Source: Aeromicrobium yanjiei
GTDB taxonomy: Bacteria > Actinomycetota > Actinomycetes > Propionibacteriales > Nocardioidaceae
DNA length: 64,000 bases
NCBI RefSeq assembly: GCF_009649075.1
Contig: NZ_CP045737.1
Span: 2,604,001 to 2,668,000 of the forward strand
Reading direction: 5' to 3'
Part shown: positions 21,548-27,856 of the stretch, piece after piece
Layout of the letters: each line of letters starts with the position of its first letter
Position numbering within the stretch: the first letter of the stretch is position 1
Notes under the pieces: generated by a model
Seen by the model: the letters and a program-made list of their open reading frames with translations, nothing else
What the model was told of the DNA's origin: nothing
The model's database searches: none
Program-made: the position numbers and the translations under genes

Positions 21548-22975
<1,428 letters not shown>

Positions 22976-23152: not shown

Positions 23153-24832
23153 ATGGGGGACGGACCTGAGCAGCTCTATGCCGACATCACCTCCGGGCAG
23201 CCGGCCGCGCTCGACGCCGCGATCGACACCTGCCGCACGACGATGCGCCAGCTCGCCGACGCGATCGACCTGATCGGCCTCGCGACCGACACGCCGGAGT
23301 GGGACAGCTCGGAGGCGTACGAGGAATACAACCTCCGCGCCTGGGCGACCCGGGCCGCGGCGGAGGTCGCGTTCATCCGGGTCAACCGGACCTCCCTCGC
23401 CGTGAAGATGGCCGCGAGCTCGTACGCCGCGGCGGTCGACTCGGCCACCGACGTCATCGAGTGGTGGCGCACCACCAAACGGTCCGACGTGAGCGGCGAC
23501 GCGCTGACCCTGGCCCGCACGATCGCATCGCTGCGGCTGTACGCGGTGCGGATCGCGCTCAACGGCCAGCTGGCCGAGGCGACCGACTTCTTGAAGACCA
23601 ACCCACTGACGGGTGATCAGGAGCAGTGGCGCACCACAGGCCTGATCAAGTCCATGCTCCACGACCTGAACTCCCCGACGGACTCCGGGCCGGCCATCCC
23701 CAACACGCTGGCGACCGGCGACGACGACCGCGGCTGGACCCCTCAGGGACTGGGCTACGACCCGGACGGCCGCCCGCCGGCCTTGCTCCAGGCGTCGTAC
23801 TCAGGTGGCAAGGCCCAGCTGGCACAGATCGATCCCGAGACGGGCGAGCAGCTGGGCTTCGTCGATCTGGGGGGTTACAAGGGAGGCACACCGCCCGACC
23901 ATGCCGGCGGGGTCACCGTGCACGACGGCTCGGTCAACGTCATGTCATCAGGCGACCCCGCGCGCATGTACACGTACTCCCTCAAGGCGGTCCGCGACGC
24001 TTCCCCGGGACAGACCGTCACGCCCCTGCCTGAACCGGTCTCGATGAGGGCCGGCGCGTACTCCACGATCGACGGTGACACCCTCTATGTCGGCACCCAC
24101 GTCAAGGATGGGCCAGGAAATCTCTTCACGTACACGAAGGACGAGTCCGGCCAATGGGTCGAGCAGTCCGGCCCGCACCCTACGCCGCCCCAGACCCAGG
24201 GCGCTGCCGTCGTCGACGGGCAGATCGTGTTCTCGACGTCCTACGGCCGAGGCAACACGAGCGCCCTGGAGGGCTACAGGCTCAGTGACGTGCTCGCCGG
24301 CCACGGAAACAACGAAGATCACCGCCTCGGCGAGGTCAGCCTGCCGAGCATGTCCCAGGGCGTCGTGGCGCTCGATGGACACGGGCTGGTCACGACGTTC
24401 GAGTCCGGGGCCGAGCCGTACTCCAAACCGGACGATGACGTCAGCCTGGACGAGCTGTGGGGGGCACAATCCATGACGATCACCCCCTTCTCCGCGCTCG
24501 GCATGACCGGAGGGATCGAGGTCGTGCCTGTGACGCTCAACCAGGCGTCGGTCGACTTCGAGGCCGGTGGACGCCGCCTGCAGAGCGCGGGGACGTCCGT
24601 CGACGGGGTCGCTCTTCCCGCCGGTTGCCTGGGCAAGAACGCGCAGGGAGATGCCTTCGCCACCGAGGTCACGTCCTCCTGCGACCTGACCTCGAAGTGG
24701 ATCTCGCAGGGCCGCATCTCGGCCAAGGTGACCGCGGAGGGGCTCGTGACGTCCGCGACCTCCTACGTCAAGACCGACCAGGGCATTCGCGACGCCTTCG
24801 CGAGGATGTCCGCGTGGATGGCAGGATCCTGA
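23153..24832 (+). CDS. Large protein with helical WXG-like head, beta-propeller and EspC-like tail
   Basis: A 559-residue protein without signal peptide. Residues 1-165 are helical, with features of WXG100-type hairpins (EWDSSEAYEEYN, VIEWWRTTK). Residues 185-460 are strand-rich repeats with DG and GG turns typical of a beta-propeller. Residues 465-559 resemble the EspC-like type VII secretion target domain (LQSAGTSVDG, GDAFATEV, LVTSATSYVKTDQGIRDAF). This suggests export by an ESX system, but no ESX genes occur here. GGGGAGG precedes ATG 23153. It leads an operon with three tandem lipoproteins. No toxin motif is recognised; exact function unknown. Confidence 0.75.
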   Translation: MGDGPEQLYADITSGQPAALDAAIDTCRTTMRQLADAIDLIGLATDTPEWDSSEAYEEYNLRAWATRAAAEVAFIRVNRTSLAVKMAASSYAAAVDSATDVIEWWRTTKRSDVSGDALTLARTIASLRLYAVRIALNGQLAEATDFLKTNPLTGDQEQWRTTGLIKSMLHDLNSPTDSGPAIPNTLATGDDDRGWTPQGLGYDPDGRPPALLQASYSGGKAQLAQIDPETGEQLGFVDLGGYKGGTPPDHAGGVTVHDGSVNVMSSGDPARMYTYSLKAVRDASPGQTVTPLPEPVSMRAGAYSTIDGDTLYVGTHVKDGPGNLFTYTKDESGQWVEQSGPHPTPPQTQGAAVVDGQIVFSTSYGRGNTSALEGYRLSDVLAGHGNNEDHRLGEVSLPSMSQGVVALDGHGLVTTFESGAEPYSKPDDDVSLDELWGAQSMTITPFSALGMTGGIEVVPVTLNQASVDFEAGGRRLQSAGTSVDGVALPAGCLGKNAQGDAFATEVTSSCDLTSKWISQGRISAKVTAEGLVTSATSYVKTDQGIRDAFARMSAWMAGS

Positions 24833-24833
24833 C

Positions 24834-25841
24834 ATGCGCCGAACCCTGACCTTGTTGATCGCTGCGCTCGCACTCGCCGCCTGCGGCTCGTCCGACGACA
24901 GTGAGGCCCTTGACTGGACGGCAGCCAAGGATCCCGCCGGCGCGAACGGTGGCCTGGCCTGGGCGGACGCGCAGACCGGTGAGGTCCACCTGCCCGACGG
25001 AGTCACCCTCGCCGCGGATCGTGCGATCCGCTCGTTCGTGGTCGCCGGCGCAGGCGCATACGTGGTCGACAAGGACAGCGAGTCGCTCGTCGAAGTGACC
25101 GCCGACGGCGCCCGTGCGACCGGCGCGTACGTGAACAAGGGGGCGAAGGCGTCCCCCAACGGTCGCTACCTCGCCTTCATCGACCCGAAAGCGGGGCCGA
25201 AGTTCGAAGGAACCACCCACCAGCTCACCTCGGTCGTGGTCGACCTCAAGACCGGCAAGGAAGTCCTCCGGTCGACCCGCGGTATGGGTGACCCCGAGGA
25301 GGACGACCTCACCAACCTCTACGAGAGCGCGGCCTACGGCGTGCTCGCCGTGAGCGACGAGACCGCGTGGTTCAGCGTCCCCGACGGCGGCGTCCTGTCC
25401 GTCGATCTCGCATCGGGAAAGGTGTCTTCGATCCGGTCCTCGGACCTCTCGGACGAGAACAATCCTTGGGCCACCCCCCGGTTGTCTCCCCCCACGCCCG
25501 GAGGGCCCGCCAACTCGGACCGGTCGTGGGCCATCTACCACGTCGTCAAGCCAGACCCGGCCCAGTCGACCGACCCCGCGGTCACCTTCCCGCACGACGA
25601 GCTGGAGTCGGCCGACGGATCCCGCCTCGTCCCGCGAGCCGACGCCGAGAACTGGTATCTCAAACAGTGGGTCGACGACACCACCGTGGCCGGATTCGCC
25701 AACACCGGCCTCGATGATCCCGAAATGGTCAAGAACACCAGGTCCAGCTCGCTGCTGACCTGCACCGTCCCGGGCGGCGCCTGCGACAGTGTGCCCGACT
25801 CCGAGTACGCCATCTTGCCCGAGCCGAACCTCCTCGAATAA
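24834..25841 (+). CDS. Tandem lipoprotein, copy 1
   Basis: A 335-residue lipoprotein: signal peptide MRRTLTLLIAALALAACGSS with lipidated Cys17, then a beta-strand-rich body like a TolB/PD40 propeller (ASPNGRYLAFID, VVVDLKTGKEVLRSTRGMGD). Near the C-terminus is CTVPGGAC, a possible disulfide, followed by ILPEPNLLE. The ATG lies one base after the preceding stop, so translation is coupled. It is one of three paralogues spaced exactly 1009 bp. It shares nearly identical signal-peptide DNA with copy 2. Role unknown; it could bind or sense the larger propeller protein encoded upstream. Confidence 0.85.
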   Translation: MRRTLTLLIAALALAACGSSDDSEALDWTAAKDPAGANGGLAWADAQTGEVHLPDGVTLAADRAIRSFVVAGAGAYVVDKDSESLVEVTADGARATGAYVNKGAKASPNGRYLAFIDPKAGPKFEGTTHQLTSVVVDLKTGKEVLRSTRGMGDPEEDDLTNLYESAAYGVLAVSDETAWFSVPDGGVLSVDLASGKVSSIRSSDLSDENNPWATPRLSPPTPGGPANSDRSWAIYHVVKPDPAQSTDPAVTFPHDELESADGSRLVPRADAENWYLKQWVDDTTVAGFANTGLDDPEMVKNTRSSSLLTCTVPGGACDSVPDSEYAILPEPNLLE

Positions 25842-25842
25842 C

Positions 25843-26850
25843 ATGCACCGGACGCTGACCCTGCTGATCGCTGCGCTCGCACTCGCCGCCTGCGGCTCGT
25901 CCGACGACAGTGAAGCCCTTGACTGGACGGCAGCCAAGGATCCCGCCGGCGCGACCGGCGGCTTGGCCTGGGCCGACGCTCAGACCGGCGAGATCCACCT
26001 GTCCGACGGCCGGACGCTCGACGCCGAGCGGGCCATCAGCTCGTTCGTCATCGCCGGCGACGGCGCCTATGTGGTCGACAAGGGCGGGGACGCACTCATC
26101 CAGGTCACCGCCGACGGCGCCCGGCCGACTGGCGCACACACGGCCCAGGTGAGGGCCTCGCCCAACGGTCGCTACCTGGCGTTCATCGACAGCCTGGCGG
26201 GCCCGACGTTCGAGGGGTCCGTGCACCAGCTGACGTCGGTCGTGGTCGACCTCAAGACCGGCAAGGAGATCTTTCGCTCCACACGCGGCATGGGCGACCT
26301 CAAGAACGACGACCTCACCGACCTCTACGAAGATGCCGATCACTTCGTGCTCGGCATCGACAACAAGACCGCGTGGATCCAGGCCGCCGAGGGTGACGTC
26401 CTGACGATCGATCTCAGCTCGTCCAGGGTCAAGGCCCTCCAGGATGTCGACCTGTCGGATGAGAAGAACCCGTGGGTCGGTCCCCGCTTCGGCGGGGAGC
26501 CGGCCCGGGGCCCTGCGAGCCCCGATCGGGCGTGGGGCATCAGGCGGGTCAACCGGACGGTCCCCCAGCTGGCCAGCGATCCAAACATGTACTTCGCCCG
26601 TGACGAGCTGGAGTCCGACACGGGCGGGGCTCGACTGGTCCCCCGGACGGCCGCCGTCAGCTGGAGCCTGGACTCATGGCTCGGCCCCACGAGGGTGGTC
26701 GGATACGCCAATGTGGGCCTCGAGAACGCCGATCGCCTCAACAACCCCGAGGACCGTACGCTGATGACCTGCACCGTGCCCGATGGCCGATGCACCTTGG
26801 TGCCGGGCTCGGAGCGCGCGATCCTCCCCGAACCGAGCTCCTACCTCTGA
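25843..26850 (+). CDS. Tandem lipoprotein, copy 2
   Basis: A 335-residue paralogue of its neighbours. The signal peptide and first 20 mature residues (MHRTLTLLIAALALAACGSS, DDSEALDWTAAKDPAGA) are almost identical to copy 1 even at DNA level. The segment around VHQLTSVVVDLKTGKEIFR and the C-terminal third instead match copy 3. It keeps the paired cysteines (CTVPDGRC). There is no Shine-Dalgarno site before the ATG, which follows the TAA of copy 1 after one C; termination-reinitiation is likely. Propeller-like lipoprotein exposed outside the membrane; ligand unknown. Confidence 0.85.
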   Translation: MHRTLTLLIAALALAACGSSDDSEALDWTAAKDPAGATGGLAWADAQTGEIHLSDGRTLDAERAISSFVIAGDGAYVVDKGGDALIQVTADGARPTGAHTAQVRASPNGRYLAFIDSLAGPTFEGSVHQLTSVVVDLKTGKEIFRSTRGMGDLKNDDLTDLYEDADHFVLGIDNKTAWIQAAEGDVLTIDLSSSRVKALQDVDLSDEKNPWVGPRFGGEPARGPASPDRAWGIRRVNRTVPQLASDPNMYFARDELESDTGGARLVPRTAAVSWSLDSWLGPTRVVGYANVGLENADRLNNPEDRTLMTCTVPDGRCTLVPGSERAILPEPSSYL

Positions 26851-26851
26851 C

Positions 26852-27856
26852 ATGCGCCGAACACTGACGATGTTCACCGCCACACTGCTGCTTGCCGCTT
26901 GCGGGTCCTCGGACGACCAGGCAGCGCTCGCCTGGACGGCAGCGAAGGATCCCGCCGGCGCGAACGGTGGCCTGGCCTGGGCCGACGCACAGACCGGTGA
27001 GGTCCATCTGCCCGACGGCAGCTCGCTCGACGCCGATCGGGCCATCAGCTCGTTCGTCGTCGCCGGCGACGGCGCCTACGTGGTCGATGAGGACGACGCA
27101 CTCGTCGAGGTCACCACTGAGGGCGCCCGGCCGACGGGTGCCCACGTCGCCCAGAACGTGAAGGCCTCCCCTGATGGACGCTATCTGGCCTTCATCGACG
27201 CCCTGGCGGGCCCGACGTTCGAGGGGTCGGTGCACCAGCTGACGTCGGTCGTGGTCGACCTCAAGACCGGCAAGGAGATCTTTCGCTCCACCCGGGGCAT
27301 GGGTGACCTCGAGGATGACGACCTCACCGACCTCTACGAGGACGCTTCCTACGGCGTGCTCGGTGTGAGCGACAAGACCGCGTGGATCGATGTCGCGACG
27401 GGAGACGATCTGTCGATCGACCTGGAGTCGGGCAAGGTCACCGCCCTGCCGGACGTGAGCTCGTCGGACCAGAAGAACCCTTGGGACGCTCCCCGCCTCC
27501 GCGGGGACCCGTCAGAGGGGCCGGCAAACCCGGACGGATCCTGGGGCATCAGGCCGGTCAACCGGACGGTTCCGGAGCTGGCCAGCGATCCAGACGTGGA
27601 CTTCGCCCGTGGCGAGCTGGAGTCCAGCGACGGAACTGTGCTCGTCCCCCGGACGGGCGCAGCCAGCTGGAGCCTCGACTCGTGGCTGGACCCGACGACG
27701 GTGGTCGGGTACGCGAACGTCAACCTCCAGAAGGCCGATCTCCTCAAGGAGCCTGAGGACAGGTCCCTGATGACCTGCACCGTCCCGGACGGAGCCTGCA
27801 CCCTGGTGCCGGACTCCGAGAACGCGATCCTGCCCGAGTCGAGCTCCTATCTCTGA
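26852..27856 (+). CDS. Tandem lipoprotein, copy 3
   Basis: A 334-residue paralogue with a more divergent signal peptide (MRRTLTMFTATLLLAACGSS) but a body close to copy 2. It has the same VHQLTSVVVDLKTGKEIF block, the RPVNRTVPELASDPDVDFARGEL region seen in copy 2, and the terminal CTVPDGAC pair. Its ATG follows the copy 2 stop after one C without a ribosome site. It closes the four-gene unit beginning at 23153. About 80 bases further on, a separate permease operon begins. Confidence 0.85.
   Translation: MRRTLTMFTATLLLAACGSSDDQAALAWTAAKDPAGANGGLAWADAQTGEVHLPDGSSLDADRAISSFVVAGDGAYVVDEDDALVEVTTEGARPTGAHVAQNVKASPDGRYLAFIDALAGPTFEGSVHQLTSVVVDLKTGKEIFRSTRGMGDLEDDDLTDLYEDASYGVLGVSDKTAWIDVATGDDLSIDLESGKVTALPDVSSSDQKNPWDAPRLRGDPSEGPANPDGSWGIRPVNRTVPELASDPDVDFARGELESSDGTVLVPRTGAASWSLDSWLDPTTVVGYANVNLQKADLLKEPEDRSLMTCTVPDGACTLVPDSENAILPESSSYL

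Follow-up and report, generated by a model that had tools for sequence, protein, structure and literature searches.

The window analysed here is a stretch of 64,000 nucleotides (2604001–2668000) of the nearly complete, 3.68 Mb genome of the soil-type actinobacterium Aeromicrobium yanjiei. It contains a unit of four genes, all on the plus strand and all separated by one-base gaps. The first gene (23153..24832) encodes a protein of 559 amino acids, here called LP, a predicted ESX substrate made up of a WXG-type hairpin, a propeller with the fold of glutaminyl cyclases (QC) and an EspC-type hairpin. It is followed by the genes for lipoprotein 1 (24834..25841; 335 amino acids, a propeller, with the codon of the lipobox cysteine at 24882), lipoprotein 2 (25843..26850; 335 amino acids) and lipoprotein 3 (26852..27856; 334 amino acids, 75% identical to lipoprotein 2). 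The unit is flanked on one side by an adenosylhomocysteinase-like gene on the minus strand (21548–22975) and on the other by a small membrane protein and solute-symporter pair on the plus strand (27935 on) – the names of these flanking genes are our own reading. A homologue of LP in Knoellia (L022:9641-15009) lies near the same kind of membrane-protein/symporter pair, without the lipoprotein.

The gene for LP has a good Shine-Dalgarno sequence (GGGGAGG, 7 nt before the ATG), and AGGA lies 7 nt ahead of the ATG of lipoprotein 1. No Shine-Dalgarno sequence was seen by eye ahead of lipoproteins 2 and 3, and their translational coupling is therefore likely. A scan of the locus found no sigma-70-like promoter above threshold. 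An earlier note on this DNA had described a four-gene propeller/lipoprotein locus, with one promoter, single-base gaps and no internal ribosome sites. The locus is real, and the gaps and the lack of a ribosome site at lipoproteins 2 and 3 were borne out, but lipoprotein 1 has its AGGA and the promoter did not reappear in the scan.

The AF2 model of LP (mean pLDDT 78, pTM 0.51) has a helical hairpin at the N-terminus (residues 17–46 and 53–110, then 115–148), a central propeller whose strands span residues 196–416, and another hairpin at the C-terminus (459–484 and 497–556). The WXG100-like hairpin (residues 17–110, from AF2 and hhalign) is encoded at 23201..23482, with the tryptophan of the turn, W50, at 23300–23302; the propeller at 23738..24400; and the EspC-like hairpin (residues 459–556) at 24527..24820. 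Within the last of these is the sequence YVKTD (24764..24778), a type VII secretion (T7SS) motif of the YxxxD/E type that is kept in 32 of the 34 rows of a full-length alignment of LP with 33 homologues. Among the best 7999 word-sharing candidates, the only ones scored in the homologue searches, the closest relatives that bear names are from Aeromicrobium.

The ends of LP were compared by hhalign with WXG100 and EspC sequences from other genomes, with reversed and shuffled targets as controls. The C-terminal end matched EspC with an E-value of 3e-7 using the 34-row alignment and 2.2e-9 using a more divergent set of 17 rows. The N-terminal end matched WXG100 with an E-value of 5e-4 (probability 30) using the 34 rows and 4e-6 using 11 of the 17 divergent rows, the window's own LP being among the six that were dropped. 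Controls scored at most 19.7, versus 25–54 for these four matches. In the divergent set the N-terminal end also matched EspC (5e-5) and the C-terminal end also matched WXG100 (6e-6), each less well than its own profile, and the WXG100 and EspC profiles resemble one another (E 1.7e-13); the two halves were therefore assigned by best score. Trp50 is invariant (34/34), with a glycine two residues on in 7 of the 34 rows; the window's LP has WDS rather than a canonical WXG. One member of the family matches the Pfam T7SS_signal model (P0031, residues 9–105, 2.1e-4) and another the EspC model (P0030, residues 449–541, 2.4e-4), both below the curated cut-offs, and the window's LP itself matches neither. 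Searched alone against Pfam and NCBIfam, the window's proteins gave nothing above cut-off. A weak match to SdpC (E 0.011) was taken as chance.

The genome that carries the window encodes EccC (E 1.4e-281), EccD and EccB, all above cut-off, and a WXG100 pair above the Pfam cut-off, together with two proteases that resemble mycosin and score below its cut-off. This ESX locus is about 650 kb from LP. In two related genomes (G239 and G257) the LP–lipoprotein pair is the 3' end of an ESX operon, with the gene order WXG100, WXG100, EccD, EccB, mycosin, LP, lipoprotein; EccC lies at the opposite end and is divergently transcribed. In a third (G190), a lipoprotein without LP is directly behind the mycosin gene of the ESX operon. 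Genes in these loci were called with a home-made finder, as were those in the Knoellia and propeller-only loci, in the loci with the second lipoprotein family and in the solo-lipoprotein loci. NCBIfam scans covered the genes of the G239 locus and, for G257 and G190, the EccB and mycosin genes; some scores are below cut-off. Every one of the 41 genomes that carry a full LP has an EccC match, versus 238 of the 294 genomes searched; as the genomes are related, the small probability of this overlap serves as a guide only. In only two of the 41 is LP within 9 kb of EccC; in 37, including the window's, it is not near, and two have no listed place.

The hairpins, the motif and the operon context in relatives indicate that LP is very probably exported by an ESX system, as the earlier note had proposed from WXG-like and EspC-like ends around a propeller; hhalign and AF2 agree on these ends, and the Pfam matches of family members lie at the expected sites. 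Profile search and structure prediction, which the note had called for, thus found ESX-type ends together with a QC-fold propeller, and its statement that no toxin motif is present agrees with the finding of no toxin family above cut-off. It had seen no ESX machinery in the piece that it described and had suggested a genome-wide search, and EccC, EccD, EccB, two mycosin-like proteases and a WXG100 pair are indeed encoded in the same genome.

Conservation in LP is highest in the propeller, where the mean identity is 0.51 versus 0.37 for each of the two ends. Its fold is the five-bladed one of type I glutaminyl cyclases (plant-type, PF05096). The top five PDB matches of LP are glutaminyl cyclases; a sequence search of the PDB returned nothing useful. 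The PF05096 model does not match LP, matches one of the 34 members at E 0.12, and has no match at E 1e-20 in the window's genome. Compared with a cyclase profile, LP gave a local match in blades 1–2 only (probability 62) and a global probability of 3. The glutamine of the TQGL motif of the cyclases is kept in LP as the PQGL-type Gln198 (34/34). The position of the conserved glutamate, E69 of the papaya enzyme, which PMC5837995 describes as a presumed proton shuttle, aligns with Gly252 of LP, invariant in the 34 rows. E69 was located from its distance of 45 to Q24, a distance that is 44–49 in the six cyclases compared (six loci, L101 and L103 being left out of eight). By eye, the cyclase positions N155 and K225 hold Gln349 and Glu417 in LP; Gln349 is shared by all 34 rows, but not by all 17 of the divergent set. 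LP shares with these enzymes the fold and the PQGL/TQGL motif and differs in the loss of the glutamate, in its other invariant residues and in the fused ESX-type hairpins. The earlier note would have given up its reading for a match to a known enzyme lacking WXG/EspC similarity; the fold is that of glutaminyl cyclases, but the WXG/EspC ends are present and the conserved glutamate is absent.

Eleven distant relatives have the same loose motifs. By our own reading all 11 have signal-like N-termini, so the propeller domain probably works outside the cell in these organisms; the three that are named are all from Bacillota. The same propeller is also found near the C-terminus of lamin-tail-domain proteins (P0060–P0065, of which P0064 and P0065 are named as Bacillota). 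Four homologues (L029, L094, L095 and L096) consist of the propeller only, with no hairpins and, by eye, no signal peptide.

All three lipoproteins of the window have a signal peptide with the lipobox LAAC; their matches to the Pfam lipobox model are below cut-off. Cys17 is invariant in the 24 rows of the lipoprotein alignment, including two that nearly duplicate rows from the window. Comparison of the LP and lipoprotein propellers did not demonstrate homology. The lipoprotein tree joins lipoproteins 2 and 3 as sisters, with lipoprotein 1 on a separate branch, and indicates that the lipoprotein was duplicated within the window's lineage.

LP-like matches were found in 52 of 294 genomes of the family, and lipoprotein matches in 68. 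A lipoprotein gene is adjacent on the same strand (at most 308 bp from the match) to 35 of the 41 full LP genes, downstream in 23 cases and upstream in 12, and adjoins none of 16 propeller-only copies. Five of the other six full LP genes adjoin a lipoprotein gene that is transcribed divergently from them and belongs to a second family (L086, L087, L088, L090, L091 and L092 are of this kind). The profile of this second family matches that of the first only near the signal peptide, and within the second family L086 is only 20–25% identical to the rest. The full LP genes with no counted lipoprotein are that of G194, where the sole lipoprotein nearby is binding-protein-like and about 1 kb off, and that of Knoellia. 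Of 20 named loci, 15 have a full-length LP; the lipoprotein accompanies it in 13, the exceptions being Knoellia L022 and L031.

LP is thus seldom found without the lipoprotein, and the lipoprotein is often found without LP – 49 of its 90 matches in the 294 genomes, many of them weak, are away from any LP match. The company that the earlier note expected is kept. Its proviso, that the lipoproteins should not occur mainly without LP, holds in part only: solo lipoproteins are common and scattered, and LP is rarely alone. Mapped on a tree of 48 lipoproteins, the solo label has to change 12 times, and no fewer than ten of the changes, each of which may be a gain or a loss, are forced by well-supported branches. 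When the label was shuffled, as few changes sufficed in 76 of 500 trials; some loci had been picked because they were solo, so the tree counts do not amount to a survey. Two solo lipoprotein pairs have dN/dS values (NG86) of 0.32–0.35, versus 0.26–0.43 in three linked pairs. Purifying selection on the lipoprotein is similar where LP is absent, and the lipoprotein is therefore, as judged from these sequences, not merely an accessory of LP. The lipoproteins of G245, which has LP, and G067, which does not, are 92% identical. No other WXG cargo was seen by eye beside 16 solo-lipoprotein loci, of which one (L070) is in an ESX operon. In another (L075:4635-4847, minus strand), an open frame of 70 amino acids with only an LP-like start and end lies beside an intact lipoprotein, and has the look of a deletion remnant of LP. 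This remnant and the pattern of solo and linked genes suggest that LP has often been lost while the lipoprotein was kept, with gains also possible. In G266, broken LP copies (L085 and C1:569087-570060) adjoin lipoprotein matches.

The reading we prefer, to which we give a probability of about one in two, is that LP is exported by way of a split signal, acts outside the cell, and is captured or controlled there by a tethered lipoprotein. LP has no Sec signal and would be carried out by the cell's own ESX machine. Its export signal would consist of the WXG-type hairpin at the N-terminus and the EspC-type hairpin, with YxxxD, at the C-terminus, which probably fold on each other or on partner Esx proteins (the pTM of the model is 0.51). 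Outside the membrane the propeller may bind or modify a small ligand or an envelope peptide, by means of invariant residues that appear to lie near its axis. The neighbouring lipoprotein, a propeller anchored on the outside of the cytoplasmic membrane, would bind LP and hold or regulate it there; contact between the two is somewhat favoured. The earlier idea of a secreted or surface propeller recognised by the lipoproteins thus gains ESX-type signals and steady lipoprotein company, with recognition itself still conjectural. The distance from EccC in 37 of the 41 genomes, the weak WXG100 match of the N-terminal end over the 34 rows and the WDS of the window's own protein count against the preferred reading, as do the purifying selection on solo lipoproteins and the two full LP genes with no counted lipoprotein.

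LP and the lipoproteins may instead be a toxin and its immunity proteins, with LP acting on competitors at their envelope and being neutralised from the cell surface by the tandem lipoproteins. The model for this is TslA, a T7SSb lipase of Staphylococcus aureus, and its immunity lipoprotein TilA, which as far as the account in PMC10730906 goes have a similar anatomy: a T7SS substrate beside tandem lipoproteins of variable copy number, in some Enterococcus faecalis embedded in the T7SS locus. According to the same account, the helical domain was N-terminal in all T7SS substrates described before TslA, in which the arrangement is reversed; TslA has a single C-terminal targeting domain, two small partners and a phospholipase, whereas in LP a QC-fold propeller is flanked by two hairpins, one at either end, the lipoproteins being set side by side by description only. 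This alternative gains from that parallel and from the lipoproteins that resemble orphan immunity genes – the solo ones across the tree and those beside the L075 remnant and the broken G266 copies – and it fits the duplication in the window's lineage and the rarity of cargo without a neighbouring partner. It loses because the propeller is conserved, where a polymorphic toxin domain would be expected to vary. No toxin family scored above cut-off, and the distant relatives either stand alone as exported proteins or form the tails of lamin-tail/fibronectin proteins. A toxin–immunity pair is accordingly the lesser possibility, a non-toxic role being favoured by about two to one.

It is improbable that LP and the lipoprotein are accessories of the ESX system itself, assembling on the outer side of its membrane complex or handling substrates. 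Their place directly after mycosin in two genomes, and that of the lipoprotein alone in the third, would suit such a role, as would the propeller protein TsgL, a T7SSg component according to PMC11217815 (a DUF5050 propeller, likened to LP by description only). LP is mostly unlinked to the ESX locus, however, and it occurs in 52 genomes and the lipoprotein in 68, versus 238 of 294 for EccC; neither is therefore needed for ESX. Least probable of all is that LP is an exported cyclase variant that modifies peptide N-termini, with the lipoprotein as substrate or docking protein, for although the PDB matches and Gln198 point that way, the glutamate is replaced by glycine and the N155 and K225 positions hold other residues.

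Under the preferred reading, and more tentatively, the hairpins might be a bipartite signal clasping a folded cargo, and LP might represent a new enzyme-like or receptor-like family on the QC fold, Sec-exported in Bacillota and ESX-exported in Nocardioidaceae, and partnered at the surface by a propeller lipoprotein dedicated to it. EspB holds both signal halves in one chain. LP resembles the mycobacterial ESX-1 proteins EspB and EspC in its EspC-type hairpin with YxxxD, and differs from them in that its halves are parted by a propeller region of about 260 residues or more. With its WXG half at one end and its EspC half at the other, LP could serve to probe how a composite signal is read by a type VII machine, and whether such a machine can carry a folded propeller. 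The Sec-exported relatives suggest that there is an activity outside the cell, with its own invariant residues, that has yet to be described. The locus also offers a concrete cargo and partner for ESX in Nocardioidaceae; a literature search combining Nocardioides and type VII secretion returned papers with neither term in title or abstract.

The ESX locus of the window's own genome encodes, between mycosin and EccD, a protein of 465 amino acids (L009:13839-15233) with a WXG100 match of 5e-4, below cut-off, which is perhaps another ESX substrate.
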